From positions 310,001 through 374,000 of the forward strand of contig NZ_JAANYN010000006.1 of assembly GCF_011290685.1 (NCBI RefSeq): a stretch of 64,000 nt of DNA, read 5' to 3'. Below are positions 4,201 to 28,225 of this stretch, piece after piece; the stretch's first letter is position 1; every line of letters begins with the position of its first letter. The translations under genes were made by a program, and so were the position numbers. Source of the DNA: Cyclobacterium plantarum (lineage in GTDB: Bacteria > Bacteroidota > Bacteroidia > Cytophagales > Cyclobacteriaceae). The notes under the pieces were generated by a model, which saw only the letters and a program-made list of their open reading frames with translations, ran no database searches and was not told where the DNA came from.

Positions 4201-7200
4201 CTCCTGCATTCACCCTCAGTTCAAACTGTGGATCATCAGGGTTGACCACTACTGAACCAACAGTTATTTGTATTTCATCAGAATCTTCCAGTCCAAGGGC
4301 ATCCGTTACTGTCAGGCTCACCAAATAGGTTCCTTCCTGATTGAAAGTAAAAGTCGGATTTGGTTGGGTGGAAATAAATCCATTGCCAAAATTCCACAGG
4401 TAAGTAAGCGATCCTTCCTGATCACTGCTTCCATCCCCCGTAAAGTTCACCGTCAACGGCAAACTTCCTGAGGTTACATTCGCAGCTGCAACAGCGACTG
4501 GTGGCTGATTGGCGACCACACTTATGGTTAATGTAGCCGTATTCGTTTCACCCAATTCATCCGTTACGGTCAGAGTTACCTGATACTCGCCTGCCGATTC
4601 GAAGGTATAGGTCGGATTGGCCGCCGTTGAGGTGATTCCGGTTCCGAAATCCCAGGCATAGCTCACTTCTCCTTCTGCATCACTGCTCTCATCTCCAGTA
4701 AAGTTTACGGTCAAAGGCGTGGATCCTTCAGTTACATCTGCCGACGCTACCGCTACCGGAGGCTCATTCGTTACCACCGAAATATTCAGTGTGGTCGTGT
4801 TTACAGCACCCAGTTCATCGGTTACGGTCAATGTCACTTCAAAATCTCCCGGATCGGCAAAGGTATAAATAGGATTAGCTTGAGTGGAAGATATTCCGGT
4901 TCCAAAATCCCAGACATAGCTCACTTCGCCTTCTGCATCACTACTCTCATCTCCGGTAAAGTTTACGGTCAATGGAGCAAAGCCTTCGGTCACATCTGAC
5001 GAAGCTACGGCTACAGGCGCCTCATTGACTGCCACTGCAATGTTCAGTGTGGCAGTATTAGTAGCTCCAAGATCGTCCGTCACCGTCAGGGTGACTTCAA
5101 AATCTCCCGCAGATTCGAAAGTGTAAGTCGGATTAGCTTCCGTGGAAGAAATTCCCGTTCCAAAATCCCACGCATAACTCACTTCGCCTTCTGCATCACT
5201 ACTCTCATCTCCGGTAAAGTTTACGGTCAATGGAGCGAATCCTTCGGTCACATCTGCGGAGGCCACAGCTACAGGCAATTCATTGGCTGCCACCGCAATG
5301 TTCAGCGTAGCTGTGTTGGTAGCTCCAAGTTCGTCAGTTACCGTCAATGTCACTTCAAAGTCTCCCGCAGATTCGAAGGTGTAAGTCGGATTAGCTTCCG
5401 TGGAAGAAATTCCCGTTCCAAAGTCCCATGCATAGCTCACATCGCCCTCTGCATCGCTGCTGTTATCTCCGGTAAAGTTGACCGTCAATGGGGCGATTCC
5501 CTCAGTTACATCTGCTTCTGCCACAGCTACAGGGGGTTCATTGGCCGATGTAGCACCTACTATGGCGATACCAGAAATACTTGGCCGATTGGCACTTGGA
5601 TCAAGCGTAATATCCAGTAAACCATCCGAAACTTCAATATTGGTGAAAGTCAATTTAAGTGGTTCATTTCCTGATTCCAGGAAGAAGTCCAAATCATCTT
5701 TTACAAGCTGACCTTCCATCAACACATCAAACACCCTGCTTCCGGCGCCTCCACCAACGACTTTACCAAAATACAATTCATTGTGGTAAGTGCTCACGGT
5801 ATAAGTACCATTTGGCACTGCTATACTTAAAGTAACCGGTGCCAGATTGGCTCCTGAACCTCGTTCCGTCTGGAATAGCACATCCGGACTGGCAGCTACA
5901 TTGGTGTAAGTATGATCGGTATCATAATAAGGGGGTAGATTTACATCTCCCACAAAAGTTTTACCCTCATAACTCACATCCGCTGTTCCACCCGTATTCA
6001 GGTATAGCGAAAAGTCAGGTACAACCGGCTCTTCAGCCACACTTATGATTTCAAAAGCAGACAATTTGGGTTGATCTGTTCCTCCATCTGCCGAAAGCGC
6101 AGAGAAATCCATGTTCAATTCCCCATCAGTAACCTCCACTTCAAAAGTTTGCGTAGTGGGTGTTTGAGGTCCAACAGCTGCATTGATGTCATAATTATCC
6201 AGAAGCAGTTCCCCCTCAATGCTCACGTCAAAGACCCGCTGACCTGCTGTTCCAGTGCCACCGCCTCCGGTAGCGCCATGAAAGATCTCTGCAAAATGCA
6301 GGGTGACCTCATAGGTACCATTGGCCACTGGTACATTGTAGCCGAATACTTTCGGTGTTGAGCTGCGCTCGGTCTGGTACAATGCAGGTACAGTAGCACT
6401 GGCATTGGAATAGGTTTTTCCACCTTCAAAATAATTATCAGCAGCAAACACATTCCCCTCAAAAGTCACTTCCGGACCACCGGCATTCACCCTGATTTCC
6501 AGAGAAGGCTGCAGGCCAGGATCAGTAACCACGACCTGAATCTGCTGAACATCTTCGTTTCCATTTGCATCCGTTACGGTCAGGGTTACATTATAGGTTC
6601 CTGTCTGGGTAAAGGTATAGTCAGGATTCGCTTCGGTAGAAGTATCACCGTTTCCAAAATCCCACAGGTAAGTCACTTCACCCTGATCATCACTGCTACC
6701 ATCACCATTAAAAGCTACTGTAAGCGGCGCATTCCCCGTGGTCACACTCGCATCCGGTATAGCTACCGGTGGAAGGTTCTCCTGCACTTCGATTACCAGG
6801 GAGGTTTGCGCACTTTCTCCGGTATCATCAATCACCGTCAAACTTACCGTGTAAGTACCGGGGTTATTAAAGGTATGGACAGGACTTACCATCGTAGCAG
6901 TGGCTTCATCATCAAAATCCCAGGCATAGGATACTATACTGCCATTGGCTTCCGACTCACTGCCATCAAACTGAACTGTCAACGGAGCAATTCCCTGCTG
7001 CACATCTGCAGTTGCGACAGCTATCGGCTCTTCCAAATCCACTACTTTTATCTGCACAGTAGCTGAACTTTCAAGACCGCTGTCATCAGTAAGTGTAAGT
7101 ACCACGTCAAACTCACCTATATTGTTGTAAGTATATGTTGGATTTGGAGCTGTGGAATTGTTTCCATCTCCAAAGTCCCAGGCATAACTGACGATCTCGC

Positions 7201-22736: not shown

Positions 22737-22918
22737 CTGAGTTCGACCTAATTTGATAATAAAATCGTCATTCCGAGGCTTTAGAGGGGGGGGGGGTTGA
22801 GCGATGGAAGCTGTGGGAATCTCTGGTAAAACGGGACTGCCAAAACATAGTACCCACAGAAAAGAGTTCGCAGTGAGGAAAAAACCGGCTTTTAATGACT
22901 TTCGTAATTCGAACTCAG
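22737..22918. repeat. Intergenic inverted-repeat element with a run of 11 G
   Basis: Perfect 10-bp inverted repeats (CTGAGTTCGA at 22737-22746 and its complement at 22909-22918), with similarity continuing a few bases outward, enclose about 160 bp. Inside are an 11-G homopolymer (22786-22796) and a nested pair CTGTGGG (22811-22817) / CCCACAG (22853-22859). The words CGTCATTCCGAGG and GGGAATCTC recall small intergenic repeats common in Bacteroidota genomes; that resemblance is from memory. It has no coding capacity. Confidence 0.6.
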
Positions 22919-23018
22919 TTTAAAAATACAAACTAAAAAAGGGTTTAAATCAGGTTCAATTTGGCTATATCGGCATGAAAACAAAAAGATCAACTGCAGT
23001 TTTGGGAAAAAATCGCAT

Positions 23019-23048
23019 AAAAAAAGCCGAACCTGTTAAGGCCCGGCT
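23019..23048 (-). terminator. Terminator downstream of cysQ
   Basis: A hairpin AGCCG/CGGCT with a further CCT/AGG pairing above a small internal mismatch spans 23025-23048. On the minus strand it is followed by a T-run (23019-23025). It starts about 30 bp beyond the cysQ stop codon. Confidence 0.75.
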
Positions 23049-23076
23049 GCTTTTGGAAAAGGATCCGGATTAAAGT

Positions 23077-23835
23077 TTATCCCTCACAAATGAAAAAAGG
23101 GTTTAATAAGTTTTGTTTATTATACCGCAAAGGCTGATTATTATCGGTTTTTTTTACAGTAAATCCCAGGGCCAGCAAGACCCCATGGGCAGCAGCGGTA
23201 TCCCATTCCATTGTTGGCGCAAAGCGGGGATAGAGTTGGGCCTTCCCTTCCGCCAGCAGCATGAATTTCAGGGATGATCCCATGCTGATCACTTTTGCAT
23301 CCGGGTATCGGTCGATTACTTCCTGTGTTTCCGGACTCAGGTGGGAGCGGCTGGCCACGATAGCGCGAACCATTTTGGTCTCAGGTCGCTTCAGCATGCG
23401 TGCCTCTTCCTTCCCTTCTTGTTTCCAGGCTCCTTCTTCGGCATTTCCCCAGTACATCCTATCCAATACAGGCGCATACACCACGCCCATCACCGGTGTA
23501 TCCCGGTGAATCAGCGCAATATTGACGGTGAATTCCCCGTTTTTTTTGATAAACTCCTTCGTGCCATCCAGTGGGTCTACCATCCAGAAATATTCCCAGT
23601 TTTTGCGCTCTTCATAGGGAATGGATTTACCTTCTTCGGAAAGTACGGGCAGACCGGTTTCACTTAGGTATTTCATGATCTCCTCATGGGCAGCCTTGTC
23701 GGCCAGTGTCAAGGGAGAATCGTCGCTTTTCATCTCAACACCAAAATCGGCAGAATGGTAGATCTTGAGTATTTCCTGCCCGGCTGCTTTGGAGGCCTCG
23801 ACGGCAAGGATGGTTAATTTTGGTAGGTCGATCAT
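23077..23835 (-). CDS. cysQ: 3'(2'),5'-bisphosphate nucleotidase CysQ
   Basis: Hydrolyses 3'-phosphoadenosine 5'-phosphate (PAP) to AMP and phosphate, removing the inhibitory by-product of PAPS use. At 252 residues it has normal family length. The metal-binding motifs of the inositol-monophosphatase fold are all visible: SEEG at 66-69, DPLDGT at 87-92 and WDTAAAH at 211-217. It is the last gene of the minus-strand sulfate assimilation cluster, about 0.8 kb after cysN, with the four-helix-bundle gene in between, and it is followed by its own terminator. The family assignment is firm and the role is supported by the neighbours. Confidence 0.95.
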   Translation of the reverse strand: MIDLPKLTILAVEASKAAGQEILKIYHSADFGVEMKSDDSPLTLADKAAHEEIMKYLSETGLPVLSEEGKSIPYEERKNWEYFWMVDPLDGTKEFIKKNGEFTVNIALIHRDTPVMGVVYAPVLDRMYWGNAEEGAWKQEGKEEARMLKRPETKMVRAIVASRSHLSPETQEVIDRYPDAKVISMGSSLKFMLLAEGKAQLYPRFAPTMEWDTAAAHGVLLALGFTVKKTDNNQPLRYNKQNLLNPFFICEG

Positions 23836-23868
23836 ATTTTCTAGTCTATGTATTCAATAAAAAGACTG

Positions 23869-23937
23869 AGTGAGAGACGAAGGGACTGAGGGACTACTGA
23901 GAGAGGAAGGGACTGAGGGACTAAGTGACATCTTTAA
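23869..23937. repeat. 8-bp-period tract, left of the four-helix-bundle gene
   Basis: On the minus strand this reads as a chain of degenerate octamers of the type GTCYCTNN, such as GTCCCTCA, GTCCCTTC and GTCTCTCA. It lies between the cysQ start and the 3' end of the four-helix-bundle gene. Its orientation is opposite to the other three tracts of the same type. Confidence 0.75.
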
Positions 23938-23970
23938 GTCTCTACGTATCTAAGGCAACAAGCCCCCACC

Positions 23971-24342
23971 TCAATACTGCCACTGTTGCGGATTTCTGCC
24001 CATGTTTACCAATTTCCCCAAAATACAATCATATTTTTCTGATTTGCGGTCCTTGACTTCTATGCTTATGTATTTACAAGCGCAAGCAAACTTTAACCAG
24101 GTCATGGTCTCTGCTGCCTCTCCCTCGCTGTCAATAAGTTTTGCTACAAATGGTTTTGGATACCTTCGCTTCCGGAAACCCTCCGAAATATTGGAGCAAA
24201 CAGATCGGGAAGACCTTCTAATTTGATCTGTTAAAGAGTATTTTTCTTCTTTCGGAAAACGTTGAGATATTTCAAAAATTTCCATGGCTGCTTCTAACGC
24301 CAATTGAAATACCTCTAAATCTTCATGGGACCTGATTTTCAT
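23971..24342 (-). CDS. Four-helix bundle protein (S23 / TIGR02436-like)
   Basis: A 123-residue protein of the four-helix-bundle family first known from open reading frames in 23S rRNA intervening sequences and related in fold to the Avd accessory protein of diversity-generating retroelements. Visible family marks are the start MKIRSHEDLEVFQLA, LTDQIRRSSRSVCSNISEGF at about 37-56 with the typical charged/aromatic pattern, and a C-terminus ending QQWQY. Function is unknown; a basic surface and nucleic-acid binding have been suggested for relatives. It lies inside the cys cluster between cysQ and cysN, where it has no obvious metabolic role, flanked by 8-bp-period tracts and a dispersed repeat. 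No reverse transcriptase or template repeat is present. Confidence 0.88.
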   Translation of the reverse strand: MKIRSHEDLEVFQLALEAAMEIFEISQRFPKEEKYSLTDQIRRSSRSVCSNISEGFRKRRYPKPFVAKLIDSEGEAAETMTWLKFACACKYISIEVKDRKSEKYDCILGKLVNMGRNPQQWQY

Positions 24343-24440
24343 GGATAGGAAATTTGAATCTACTCTCCTTGGATTTGATCTACGACCTATTTGCTTGCAT
24401 TTTGGCTTTTATCTGGATTCAGCCTGAAAGCTCAATGGAT

Positions 24441-24507
24441 GCTCTTTTCCAGGATAAGTCTGCAGAGGACCAACTCTCATCAGCGTCCATAAATCATCAT
24501 ATCGGCC
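24441..24507. repeat. Dispersed 67-bp repeat, copy 1
   Basis: The right 40 bp (24468-24507) match 26559-26598 at 38 of 40 positions, and the left 27 bp match more weakly. It lies about 100 bp upstream of the start of the four-helix-bundle gene and leads directly into an 8-bp-period tract, exactly as in copy 2. Confidence 0.85.
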
Positions 24508-24519
24508 CTTTATCTCTTT

Positions 24520-24651
24520 GACTCTTCGTCTCCAAGTCCCTTCGTCCCTTTGTCTCTTCGTCCCTTCGTCTCCCTCTCACTCCGTCTCCAGGTCCCTTCG
24601 TCCCTAAGTCACTTCGTCTCCCCATCCCTCAGTCCCTAAGTCTCATCGTCC
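24520..24651. repeat. 8-bp-period pyrimidine-rich tract at the cysN 3' end
   Basis: About 16 consecutive octamers of consensus GTCYCTNN on the plus strand, for example GTCCCTTC, GTCTCTTC and GTCCCTAA. It ends 6 bp from the cysN stop codon. Strand composition is strongly asymmetric, with C and T dominating. Apparent short open frames in it are low-complexity by-products. Confidence 0.88.
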
Positions 24652-24657
24652 ATCCAA

Positions 24658-25917
24658 CTAAATCACCATCCCCGCAGCGACGGTTTCGTTGGTATTGGGG
24701 TCGATAAGGATGATAGAACCAGTTTGGCGGTTTCGCCGGTAGGCATCCATAAACAAAGGTTGAGCGGTACGCAGACTGATGCGGGCAATGTCATTCATGC
24801 CGATTTCCTGCACCCCTTCTTCCCGGTGAAGTGTGTTGACATCCACCCGATAAAGGATCTCTTTTACCATTGCCTGACACTCTTTGGTGGTATGTTTTAT
24901 CAGTAATTTGGTTCTCCCTGCCAGCTTTTGCTGACTCATCCAGCATACCATTACATCCAGATCCTGAGCCACATTTGGTACATTGTTAGGCCTTACGAGC
25001 ATGTCCCCCCTGCTGATATCCAATTCATCCTCCAGGGTCATGGTCACCGACATGGGTGAAAAGGCCTCGGCAATAGCTTGCCCGTTGAGCTCTATGCTTT
25101 TGATTTTGGAAGTGAAGCCGGTAGGCAATACCTTCACATCGTCCCCGGGTTTAAATATCCCTCCTTCTATCCTTCCGGCATAACCTCTGAAGTCCTGATG
25201 CTCGTGGGTATGGGGCCGGATGACCATTTGGACAGGAAAACGACAATCAATGTGGTTCAGGTCGGAGGCGATGTGAACATTTTCCAGCAGGTACAACAGG
25301 GTAGGCCCCTCGTACCAATCCATATTTTTGGACCTGTCCACCACATTGTCTCCCTTTAGAGCGGAAATAGGCACAAAATGTACGTCTTTGATTTCCATTT
25401 TGCTGGCAAAGTCTTTGTAATCCTTGATGATTTTTTCGAAGACCGCTTCATCATAATCCACCAGATCCATTTTATTGACACAGACGATCACATGAGGTAT
25501 TTTCAGGAGAGAAGCGATAAAGGAATGCCGGTAGGTTTGTTCCAGCAAGCCCTTTCTGGCATCAATCAGAATAATGGCCAGGTTAGCAGTAGAAGCCCCT
25601 GTCACCATGTTTCTGGTATACTGAATGTGACCAGGAGTGTCGGCAATGATAAATTTTCGCTTGGGAGTGGCAAAATACCTGTAAGCCACGTCGATGGTTA
25701 TGCCCTGTTCCCTTTCTGACTTGAGGCCATCGGTTAGCAGGGAAAGGTCTACATAGTCAAACCCTTTTTTTTCACTGGAGGTTTTTACGGCGGCTATCTG
25801 GTCTTCAAAAATAGATTTGGAATCGAATAACAACCTCCCAATTAGGGTGCTTTTCCCATCATCCACAGACCCTGCCGTGGTAAATCTCAACAATTGATTG
25901 GTTTCTTGTATACTCAT
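24658..25917 (-). CDS. cysN: Sulfate adenylyltransferase subunit 1 (GTPase) CysN
   Basis: The regulatory GTPase of ATP sulfurylase; with CysD it makes adenosine 5'-phosphosulfate from ATP and sulfate, driven by GTP hydrolysis. At 419 residues it is the stand-alone form without a fused CysC kinase domain, consistent with a separate cysC nearby. G-motifs are GSVDDGKS (16-23), DTPGH (93-97) and NKMD (148-151), followed by EF-Tu-like beta-barrel domains. Normally it abuts cysD; here an 806-bp non-coding insert separates the two. The start ATG at 25915-25917 gives the standard family N-terminus. Confidence 0.96.
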   Translation of the reverse strand: MSIQETNQLLRFTTAGSVDDGKSTLIGRLLFDSKSIFEDQIAAVKTSSEKKGFDYVDLSLLTDGLKSEREQGITIDVAYRYFATPKRKFIIADTPGHIQYTRNMVTGASTANLAIILIDARKGLLEQTYRHSFIASLLKIPHVIVCVNKMDLVDYDEAVFEKIIKDYKDFASKMEIKDVHFVPISALKGDNVVDRSKNMDWYEGPTLLYLLENVHIASDLNHIDCRFPVQMVIRPHTHEHQDFRGYAGRIEGGIFKPGDDVKVLPTGFTSKIKSIELNGQAIAEAFSPMSVTMTLEDELDISRGDMLVRPNNVPNVAQDLDVMVCWMSQQKLAGRTKLLIKHTTKECQAMVKEILYRVDVNTLHREEGVQEIGMNDIARISLRTAQPLFMDAYRRNRQTGSIILIDPNTNETVAAGMVI

Positions 25918-25957
25918 GCTCTTTTTATATTTCTAAAATCAGTCTAATATTTATTTA

Positions 25958-25999
25958 GTCACAAAGGACACCAAGAACCACAGAGGACACAAAGGATAA
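25958..25999 (-). repeat. GTGTCCTCTGTGG-type repeat upstream of cysN
   Basis: On the minus strand this reads as a degenerate chain of about 9-10 bp words (CTTTGTGTC, CTCTGTGGTT, CTTGGTGTC, CTTTGTGAC). A related word, GTGTCCTCTGCG, occurs in the opposite orientation at 26674-26685, so the two roughly bracket the insert between cysN and cysD. Similar extragenic words are familiar from other environmental bacteria, but that is from memory. Confidence 0.6.
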
Positions 26000-26016
26000 G
26001 GGTTAAAGTGATAGGT

Positions 26017-26052
26017 AACTGCCAGGCTGTTCAACCGGTCTGTCTGGCAGTT
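26017..26052. repeat. Perfect 9-bp inverted repeat (hairpin) in the cysN-cysD gap
   Basis: AACTGCCAG (26017-26025) and its exact complement CTGGCAGTT (26044-26052) are separated by 18 bases. No T-run follows on either strand, so it is not a standard terminator. It could be part of the cysN leader or of the inserted repeat element. Confidence 0.6.
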
Positions 26053-26189
26053 GGGCTGGCGGTGATATCAACCTTAGTAGTTAAGGGTTAATCAATCGTA
26101 CCATTGTACCATCAAATCATCACATCATGCCTTCGGCTCCGCTCAGGGACCGGAACTAGTTTAGCCTTTTTCCAGCTCCTGTTCACATC

Positions 26190-26333
26190 GTCTTTAAGTC
26201 CCTTCGTCTCTAAGTCCCTTTGTCTCTTTGTCTCTAATTCTCTTTGTCTCTCCGTCCCTTCGTCCCTATGTCTCTTCGCCTCCCTCTCTCTAAGTCCCTT
26301 CGTCTCAAAGTCTCCCTCTCTCTAAGTCTCAAA
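26190..26333. repeat. 8-bp-period tract in the cysN-cysD gap, left
   Basis: About 18 octamers in strict 8-bp register on the plus strand (GTCCCTTC, GTCTCTAA, GTCCCTTT, GTCTCTTT and variants). It is the cleanest of the four tracts. It leads directly into a short stretch resembling the 3' end of the four-helix-bundle gene. Confidence 0.88.
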
Positions 26334-26342
26334 TCCCCTTCG

Positions 26343-26366
26343 GTACTTCCACTGTTATGGATTTTT
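26343..26366 (-). pseudogene. Possible 3' remnant of a four-helix-bundle gene
   Basis: The 24 bp resemble the last codons of the four-helix-bundle gene at 23973-23997, with about 18 of 21 core bases identical. On the minus strand they read NP-stop-QWKY against NPQQWQY in the intact gene. The position relative to the flanking tract and dispersed repeat is the same as in the intact copy. The match is short, so this is suggestive only. Confidence 0.45.
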
Positions 26367-26397
26367 TACAATTCATACTACCGAATAAAGGAAAATA

Positions 26398-26484
26398 TGA
26401 CGCTCCTTTAGAGCTAAACCAAAATATGCACAATTTTCGATGGGCTTCACCCATCGCTGGGAGCTCCCGCCCCTTCAGGGCTCA
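26398..26484. repeat. REP-like hairpin element in the cysN-cysD gap
   Basis: It contains a perfect stem CGATGGG / CCCATCG (26438-26456) with loop CTTCA, followed by a second GC-rich imperfect palindrome around GGGAGCTCCC and GAGC...GCTC (26459-26483). The wording (gatgggtgaagcccatcg, cccctTCAGGGCT) resembles widespread palindromic intergenic repeats of Bacteroidota. It occupies the place where a four-helix-bundle gene would be expected. Confidence 0.55.
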
Positions 26485-26531
26485 AGTTAGATATGATATT
26501 CAGAATGCATATCTTCGCATCATAAAACGCT

Positions 26532-26598
26532 GCTCTTTTTCAAATTAAGTCTACAATTGACCAACTCTCCTCAGCGTCCATTAATCATCATATCGGCC
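26532..26598. repeat. Dispersed 67-bp repeat, copy 2
   Basis: Matches 24441-24507; the right 40 bp are 38/40 identical. Like copy 1, it is followed within about 10 bp by an 8-bp-period tract that runs toward the 3' end of a cys gene, here cysD. Confidence 0.85.
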
Positions 26599-26608
26599 AT
26601 CTTTCTTT

Positions 26609-26680
26609 GTATCTCTCAGTCTACCCCCCAGTCCCTAAGTCTCTTCGTCCCTTCGTCCCTAAGTCTCCTCTTCGTGTCCT
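26609..26680. repeat. 8-bp-period tract at the cysD 3' end
   Basis: Octamers GTCCCTAA, GTCTCTTC, GTCCCTTC and GTCCCTAA are in register, with less regular units at both ends. It ends about 40 bp before the cysD stop codon and runs into the word GTGTCCTCTGCG. Confidence 0.75.
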
Positions 26681-26723
26681 CTGCGACCTTTCTTTTTTTT
26701 GTTCGCTCACTCTCCCTTATTCT

Positions 26724-27629
26724 CTAGAAATACCCGCTTTTCTTCCTGTCTTCCATGGCGGTTTCGCCTCTTTTGTCATCGGCTCGGGTGCCTCTCTCTG
26801 TGGTTCGGGTGGTGGCTACTTCGGCAATGATCTTGTCAAGGTCGTCGGCATCTGATTCCACCGCTCCCGTGATGGGCATGTCTCCACAGGTTCGGTACCG
26901 GACCGTCATGGTTTTGACTTCTTCTTCCGGCTTCAGCTGGATAAACTCCGACTTGGCCAGGATCACCCCATCTCTTACCACACATTCCCTTTGGTGGGAA
27001 AAGTACAGGGACGGCAAATCGATATTTTGGTTTTGAATGTACTGCCAGACATCCATCTCCGTCCAATTAGAAATAGGGAATATCCTGAAATGTTCTCCCA
27101 AATGCTTTTTGCCGTTGAACAGGTTCCAAAGCTCGGGTCTTTGGTTTTTAGGATCCCATTGTCCAAATTCGTCCCTATGTGAGAAAAAGCGTTCTTTTGC
27201 CCGGGCCTTTTCCTCGTCTCTTCTGGCACCACCCATAGCGGCGTCAATTTTGAATTTTTCCAATGTATCCAGCAGTGTTACCGTTTGCAGGGCATTACGG
27301 CTAGCATTTACACCAGTTTCCTCCCTTACTTTTCCTTCATTGATACTTTGCTGTACCGAGCCAACGATAAGTTGTACGCCCAGCTTATTGACCAGGTCGT
27401 CCCTGAAAGCAATGGTTTCCGGAAAATTGTGGCCTGTATCGATATGGATCAGGGGAAAGGGGATTCTGGAAGGATAAAATGCTTTTTTGGACAGATGGGC
27501 CAGTACAATGCTGTCCTTACCACCTGAAAACAAAAGTGCAGGCTTTTCAAATTGGGAGACCACCTCCCGGATAACAAAAATTGCCTCTGCCTCCAGTTCC
27601 TCCAAATGGGATAAATAATATTGCGCCAT
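26724..27629 (-). CDS. cysD: Sulfate adenylyltransferase subunit 2 CysD
   Basis: Catalytic subunit of ATP sulfurylase: forms adenosine 5'-phosphosulfate and pyrophosphate together with the CysN GTPase. The PP-loop motif SGGKDS is at 35-40, and the protein (301 residues) ends in the family-typical basic tail with terminal KKSGYF. It starts 2 bp after the cysC stop, so cysC and cysD are tightly coupled, while the usual next gene cysN is displaced by the repeat insert. Assignment is firm. Confidence 0.97.
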   Translation of the reverse strand: MAQYYLSHLEELEAEAIFVIREVVSQFEKPALLFSGGKDSIVLAHLSKKAFYPSRIPFPLIHIDTGHNFPETIAFRDDLVNKLGVQLIVGSVQQSINEGKVREETGVNASRNALQTVTLLDTLEKFKIDAAMGGARRDEEKARAKERFFSHRDEFGQWDPKNQRPELWNLFNGKKHLGEHFRIFPISNWTEMDVWQYIQNQNIDLPSLYFSHQRECVVRDGVILAKSEFIQLKPEEEVKTMTVRYRTCGDMPITGAVESDADDLDKIIAEVATTRTTERGTRADDKRGETAMEDRKKSGYF

Positions 27630-27631
27630 AA

Positions 27632-28225
27632 CTATATTTTAATTTTTTTCTCTAATTCATTCATTAATTGTTCCACAGCTTTCTCCGGAGATACTTCTGC
27701 TGTTTTGATCACCAAAAAAGGGGATTCAGGAGCTTCATAAGGGGAATCAATGCCTGTAAAATCCTTGATCAAACCTTGCCTGGCTTTTTGATACAGGCCT
27801 TTTACATCCCTTTCTTCACAGACTTCCAGCGGACAATCTACATGGATTTCCAGAAAACGATCAGTGCCTACCAGATCCCGTATCATCTCTCTGTCGGAAA
27901 TATAGGGAGAAATGAATGCCGATAAGACAATCAGTCCGGCATCCATCATCAACTGGCTTACAGCGGCTATTCTGCGGATATTTTCAATACGGTCTGATTT
28001 ACTGAAACTCAGGTCCTTGTTCAGTCCGCAGCGGATATTGTCCCCATCCAGCAAATAGGTATGGTAACCCCTTTTGTGCAAAGCCTGTTCTGTGGCATTG
28101 GCCAGGGTGGACTTACCAGAACCCGACAGGCCGGTAAACCAAACCAGTTTGGCCTGTTGCCCCAGAGCTTGCTGCCGCAGTTCGCGTGTAATTTTAAATT
28201 CTGAGGGATGTATGTTTTCCTGCAT
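27632..28225 (-). CDS. cysC: Adenylylsulfate kinase CysC
   Basis: Phosphorylates adenosine 5'-phosphosulfate at the 3'-OH to give PAPS. The P-loop GLSGSGKST is at 32-40, and the family blocks DGDNIRCGLNKDL, FISPY and the C-terminal IDSPYEAPESP follow. Length (197 residues) is typical. It lies between the SLC13 permease gene (21-bp gap) and cysD (2-bp gap) in the minus-strand operon. Its presence together with CysQ implies a PAPS-dependent reduction or sulfotransfer route; no PAPS reductase gene is in the window. Confidence 0.96.
   Translation of the reverse strand: MQENIHPSEFKITRELRQQALGQQAKLVWFTGLSGSGKSTLANATEQALHKRGYHTYLLDGDNIRCGLNKDLSFSKSDRIENIRRIAAVSQLMMDAGLIVLSAFISPYISDREMIRDLVGTDRFLEIHVDCPLEVCEERDVKGLYQKARQGLIKDFTGIDSPYEAPESPFLVIKTAEVSPEKAVEQLMNELEKKIKI

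Follow-up and report, generated by a model that had tools for sequence, protein, structure and literature searches.

In Coxiella and Leptospira, intervening sequences (IVSs) of ribosomal RNA (rRNA) carry an S23p/IVP open reading frame (ORF) within the stem of their terminal inverted repeats, and the accessible text of PMC4990558 adds that in Coxiella tandem heptamers precede the S23p ORF and that the rRNA IVS is removed by RNase III. A different class of repeat, the short tandemly repeated repetitive (STRR) sequences of cyanobacteria, is described in the available part of PMC2670836 as usually built from 7-bp units that can form hairpins and have no known function. The present study concerns a 64,000-nt stretch (the window) of a 6.17-Mb Cyclobacterium genome, in which a gene for an IVP protein, of the same family as that of the rRNA IVSs, lies between cysQ and cysN and is flanked by inverted arrays of an 8-bp repeat. 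This arrangement is probably a free-standing, IVS-like selfish unit, wherein an IVP gene sits between its own inverted phased arrays and encodes a protein that recognises them.

Two cys spacers carry the element (Table 1). At the intact locus, the array 3' of the IVP gene is opposite in strand to the other three 8-bp tracts (inverted repeats I1-I13), and the array 5' of the gene is purine-rich on the IVP sense strand. The cysN-cysD spacer has the order array, 23-bp 3' remnant, repetitive extragenic palindrome (REP)-like hairpin, 67-bp upstream sequence, array. The similarity of the remnant to the intact gene was reached by 0 of 60 shuffles, and its translation, NP*QWKY, compares with NPQQWQY of the intact gene. 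This second locus is a copy of the element with its inside gutted. A first-pass annotation of the stretch had already described the intact gene, the 3' remnant, 8-bp tracts at both loci and a REP-like hairpin at the second locus, all of which are borne out, with four tracts now located by unit counts. A three-unit GTCYCT pattern (at most one mismatch) gave 21 overlapping matches in the genome, all at the cys locus, and a reversed control of the pattern gave none. The 67-bp sequence had been called a dispersed repeat. The repeat is real, but the label is wrong because its two copies are its only matches in the genome; in 98 other genomes there was no full-length match, only two partial ones of 19 and 24 bases, and the sequence is rejected as a dispersed mobile core. 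The dispersed component of the locus is the REP-like hairpin, whose core matches four places in this genome (one being the window copy) and, in three relatives, 6, 6 and 7 places. An Rfam scan of positions 22900-27800 gave no match to a known RNA family at the gathering threshold. No transposase was recognised, PF05635 and bAvd being the sole matches of the gene, although Tyr transposases were not searched for genome-wide.

Arrays also accompany other IVP genes. The two further IVP genes of this genome both lie between 8-bp tracts, with motifs read as TTAAYTGN and GATGRTYT. A family sample of 68 IVP ORFs in 19 related genomes was drawn from 77 matches after removal of duplicates, of ORF pieces shorter than 80 aa and of a few matches that were weak or not retrieved. 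Significant short-period arrays were found upstream of 44 ORFs, downstream of 56 and on both sides of 38, and the period is equal on both sides in 33 of these 38 (period 7 in 17, 8 in 13, 10 in two and 9 in one). As a control, 7 of 100 chunks from the rest of the window passed, none of them at periods 7-9. Many of the 68 ORFs are orthologous and they form 23 locus clusters, one of which is a chained group of 20; every one of the 23 includes a member with an array on one side or both, and 14 include a member with arrays on both. A motif common to both sides was seen at the 33 equal-period loci in inverted orientation in 18, in direct orientation in 7 and in either in 24, compared to 27/430 (inverted) and 16/430 (direct) for mismatched loci.

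Beyond the family, a phylum-wide sample of 30 best-match loci gave arrays upstream of 12, downstream of 14 and on both sides of 8, all eight with equal periods (control, 13 of 80 distal pieces). Plasmid loci were represented by 22 of 34 records, from 20 Cyanobacteria, one member of the Gemmatimonadota and one of the Alphaproteobacteria; records H8, H17, H20, H23 and H27-H34, including four from Riemerella and several short matches, were left out. Here we see arrays upstream at 20 loci, downstream at 15 and on both sides at 14, with equal periods in all 14 (control, 10/88). These counts come from 300-bp flanks and a 32-bp scan, settings unlike those of the phylum-wide run, under which the first ten plasmid loci gave two-sided arrays at 7 and equal periods at 6. 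Many of the 20 cyanobacterial loci have period 7, with 8 or 9 elsewhere; the window period is 8. A constant 6-base core at every period did not hold up: the mean number of conserved positions is 3.3 at period 7, 4.6 at period 8 and 6.3 at period 10 (three arrays). Pooled GTCYCT unit profiles are partly circular, the units having been chosen by their match to GTCYCT. The spacers at L104 and L121 each contain a concatenation of arrays from several motif families, which looks as though arrays draw in further arrays.

The relation between motif, protein and site was assessed for 49 IVP genes that have a strong array, sites being defined with the gene and 350 bp on each side masked. A motif is common to 36 of 40 protein pairs at an identity of at least 0.6, and to 13 of 936 at an identity below 0.3. 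Pairs at the same site with an identity of 0.2-0.4 have the motif in common in only 1 of 27 cases; among the 12 different-site pairs with an identity of at least 0.5, the motif is common to 8 and the period to 11. The Mantel correlation is r 0.406 (0/2000 permutations), or r 0.141 for different-site pairs alone (1/2000), bearing in mind that the pairs are not independent of one another. In short, the array motif follows the protein subfamily more than the site. One such case is Cyclobacteriaceae YHN15, in which a member of the same IVP subfamily (71%) lies by a manC-like gene, so named from a reading of its sequence, between inverted GTCYCT arrays that are significant on both sides (p 0.01). 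Subfamily and motif thus recur together at another place, which backs the earlier idea that gene and tracts form a unit. Overall, arrays flank most of the IVP genes tested in the family and each motif goes with its protein, a pattern that extends beyond the first-pass annotation.

The arrays also have a polarity centred on the gene: on the IVP sense strand they are G-rich upstream and C-rich downstream. For the family loci, the G skew is +0.41 upstream and −0.35 downstream (31 of 38 pairs, p 2.8e-5), and purine-content polarity holds in 12 of 15 clusters. A second set, comprising the phylum-wide loci and ten plasmid loci, gave +0.44 and −0.44 (p 1.5e-6), and the 22 plasmid loci, ten of which are also in that second set, gave +0.62 and −0.56 (p 1.5e-5). 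The IVP gene is codirectional with its neighbours in 44 of the 48 loci that have same-strand neighbours, out of 65 with both neighbours called. By majority within 19 clusters, 16 run with their neighbours, one runs against and two lie between convergent genes; in this grouping, one cluster of 22 members is the product of chaining across different sites. Antisense insertions are also present among the plasmid loci. In the predicted minimum-free-energy RNA fold of the sense strand at the window IVP gene, the two arrays pair with each other and the whole IVP ORF lies in the loop. The predicted stem has a stability z of −2.54, with 0 of 20 shuffles as stable, and across loci the arms of an element pair better with each other than with swapped arms (p 0.0008).

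The window gene is a clear member of its family, matching PF05635 (23S_rRNA_IVP) with E 3.6e-29 and 101.6 bits (curated cut-off 33.8) and TIGR02436, four helix bundle protein, with 88.9 bits (cut-off 24). Its closest named matches come from C. lianum and C. salsum. In a sample of 296 genomes of the phylum (Bacteroidota), 232 contain IVP genes. We know of no agreed function for PF05635 proteins. A phage origin was rejected, as there was no match in 50,697 phage records. An AlphaFold model (pLDDT 80) has as its best solved Foldseek matches 2gsc (E 1.9e-5, TM 0.80/0.87) and 2rld, each with five chains. The Avd structure 4dwl is a weaker match (E 0.054, TM 0.63/0.71), and the bAvd and Avd models match the protein below their curated cut-offs (21.7 vs 80 bits for Avd). 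The first-pass annotation had noted a relation of four-helix-bundle proteins to Avd, and a resemblance of PF05635 to Avd is remarked on in the accessible text of PMC10053308. The same annotation found no reverse transcriptase (RT) in the window, and the RT matches of this genome lie on contigs C11 and C13, whereas the window is part of C34; with the low Avd score, this leaves a link to diversity-generating retroelements without support. The IVP gene is under purifying selection, with dN/dS of 0.03-0.10 for the cys-spacer copies (three pairs with measurable dS).

Table 1. Positions of the element, its gutted copy and related features; window positions unless a contig is named.
Feature	Position	Strand	Remarks
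8-bp-period array, 3' of IVP gene	23861..23929	-	8 units, 5 perfect; GTCYCTNN read on - strand
Intact IVP / four-helix-bundle gene, 123 aa	23971..24342	-	PF05635, TIGR02436; cysQ-cysN spacer
67-bp sequence copy 1, 5' of IVP start codon	24441..24507	+	Repeat comparison
8-bp-period array, 5' of IVP gene	24485..24653	+	20 units, 7 perfect
8-bp-period array, cysN side of locus 2	26190..26331	+	21 units, 10 perfect
Remnant of IVP gene 3' end (NP*QWKY)	26340..26362	-	18/23 bases identical
REP-like hairpin core, ~46 bp, at gene-body position of locus 2	about 26437..26482	+	Dispersed
67-bp sequence copy 2	26532..26598	+	85% identical to copy 1
8-bp-period array, cysD side of locus 2	26609..26668	+	7 units, 4 perfect
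9-bp-period CACAAAGGA tract, second repeat family	25960..25996	+	Repeat I22
GxxExxY gene of G153	L167 2825-3175 = C21:21824-22174		cysQ-cysN spacer

The cysQ-cysN spacer was compared across 14 genomes (the window and 13 others), with genes located by tblastn and arrays by eye, and with unit counts for some. An IVP gene with arrays is present in four (the window, C. lianum, C. salsum and G031, which belongs to another genus), at 76-88% protein identity to the window. GTCYCT arrays without an IVP gene occur in two (G195 and G238), and six have neither gene nor arrays (G249, G224, G259, G211, G266 and G034). In place of the IVP unit, the spacer of G153 holds a gene of the GxxExxY family (PF13366) accompanied by 9-bp hairpins of the CACAGAGGA type, and the 1.4-kb spacer of G174 (L166) is filled by about 12 tandem gene-less hairpin units of 9-bp period. 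On inspection by eye, matching 9-10-bp hairpins seem to bracket other GxxExxY genes as well, but a period test was weak for this family: among 30 loci, of which 28 had both flanks scored, it was positive 5' in 5, 3' in 8 and on both sides in 2. Elsewhere, IVP genes were also found between nrd genes and between cas genes. On cyanobacterial plasmids (L241, L265 and L266) the IVP gene is flanked by cas6 and cas4 or by cas10 and a cmr3-family gene; this could be why a figure legend of PMC10910872 that deals with CRISPR-associated proteins names the IVP.

Apart from the element, positions 25981-25994 of the CACAAAGGA tract recur inverted at 26670-26683. The window also contains, at 1220-22033, an ORF of 6,937 codons with PKD-like and malectin-like repeats recognised by eye, and within it a 258-bp tandem repeat at 4602-5545.

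A working scheme for the selfish unit can be proposed from these data. The element would be transcribed together with the host operon, and its purine-rich upstream and pyrimidine-rich downstream arrays would pair into a long stem with the gene in the loop. The IVP protein is related to Avd and probably ring-shaped; its most likely target is its own array, in the form of RNA or single-stranded DNA, which it would bind in phase with the repeat period. Such phased reading would follow a TRAP-like logic, and would account for motif and period going with the protein. The stem may also allow the insert to be cut out of operon transcripts by host RNases, in the way that RNase III removes the rRNA IVS. 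Array and gene may occasionally reach new spacers together, probably through protein-assisted annealing or repeat recombination and not by a transposase, and arrays would be expected to persist after the IVP gene decays.

Several results weigh against this proposal. The repeats are local in this genome, and therefore recent transposition is not seen. No target-site duplication was recognised by eye in the 14 cysQ-cysN spacers, which have diverged too far for the ends of the unit to be placed. The copy carried there by four genomes from two genera seems to have been inherited vertically. Tracts and IVP genes are often apart: an IVP gene lies within 2 kb of only 5 of 42 GTCYCT tract places among the matches listed (relatives and this genome, counted by hand with places more than 1 kb apart kept separate), which goes halfway to the refutation named in the first-pass annotation. 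The signal is weaker across the phylum, with two-sided arrays at only 8 of 30 loci, and the flanking arrays are in direct orientation at 7 of the 33 equal-period family loci. The 12 different-site pairs represent few loci, with YHN15 in four of them and two fragmentary G034 genes in six, and one pair at 0.71 identity has neither motif nor period in common. In the scored part of the second set, purine content is higher in the upstream array for only 9 of 14 pairs. At only 8 of 23 loci do an element's own arms pair better than 95% or more of the swapped ones, and three further spacer ORFs have no Pfam match. The mobile cassette of the first-pass annotation is partly supported: tract and gene behave as a unit that some orthologous spacers lack, but the repeats stay local and no target duplication was recognised.

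An unlikely alternative is that the arrays are ordinary microsatellites, born by slippage at recombination hot spots, on which IVP genes land by chance with no tie between the two. Tracts without a nearby IVP gene in relatives would fit this, as would composite arrays of several families stacked in a single spacer, the different repeat families carried by the cys spacers of different species, and the concentration of mismatches at certain unit positions in only 16 of 57 arrays. Against chance landing, however, the motif tracks the protein more than the site, periods are equal on both sides, and polarity is centred on the gene.

The IVP protein could instead act in trans, together with a partner such as a Tyr transposase or an RT, to mobilise non-autonomous array-core-array hairpins in the manner of a REPtron. 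We consider this quite improbable. It draws on the IVP locus L001, where units whose conserved core is enclosed by inverted arrays stand on either side of the IVP gene, on the presence of an RT in 14 of 15 genomes, and on the fact that Avd, the fold relative, works with an RT. The L001 core has just two copies in its genome, though, both at its own IVP locus, and none in 12 other genomes searched, so genome-wide amplification of such units is rejected for this genome; the RT matches here are on contigs other than that of the window, and the IVP-bearing G174 has no RT match. A host function is also conceivable, with the IVP protein binding arrays in cys mRNA and controlling sulfate assimilation as TRAP would, and presence of the cysQ-cysN copy in four genomes of two genera under purifying selection agrees with it, as does the codirectionality of IVP with its neighbours in 16 of 19 locus clusters. 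That explanation is nevertheless very improbable given that 10 of the 14 genomes lack IVP in the spacer, six of them lacking gene and arrays alike, and that relatives adjoin unrelated genes (manC-like, nrd and cas).

Returning to the selfish unit, a wider proposal can be put forward only tentatively, namely that IVP genes may be the source of many bacterial short-period arrays, including the cyanobacterial STRRs, with the rRNA IVS as a special case of an undescribed self-propagating unit. Each IVP protein would then read a motif of its own and either maintain or spread it. We know of no established origin for STRRs. If the proposal is true, IVP proteins and spacer tandem repeats would both gain a testable hypothesis, in which the protein would bind the repeat of its own element and propagate it, and rRNA intervening sequences would be one landing site of a broader element. 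A literature search found no published description of the gene-plus-array pattern, and came closest with the Coxiella heptamers ahead of the S23p ORF and the STRRs; subscription papers were mostly outside its reach, and novelty is provisional.

Finally, the element can be set beside known systems. Foldback transposons have long inverted repeats built from short tandem units; the likeness is in the repeats, whereas the present element is bacterial and IVP-encoding, with no transposase recognised. Avd of the diversity-generating retroelements has a related fold, but the window protein falls below the Avd cut-off and has no RT beside it. As in REPINs and their RAYT genes, hairpin repeats are here tied to a neighbouring gene and have gene-less copies elsewhere (PMC3116915, accessible text); that system uses a Tyr transposase, whereas here we see a four-helix bundle, phased arrays and little dispersal in this genome. 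Heptamers similar to cyanobacterial STRRs flank IVP genes on cyanobacterial plasmids, but the accessible part of the STRR literature names no associated gene, and IVP arrays also have periods of 8, 9 and 10. The closest comparison is with the rRNA IVS, which is inserted in the 23S rRNA gene, where the window unit instead occupies the spacer of a protein operon, between cysQ and cysN. Unlike those of the rRNA IVS, the arms of window-type elements are long phased arrays whose motif goes with the protein subfamily; like those of the rRNA IVS, the inverted arrays of the window form a predicted stem around the ORF.

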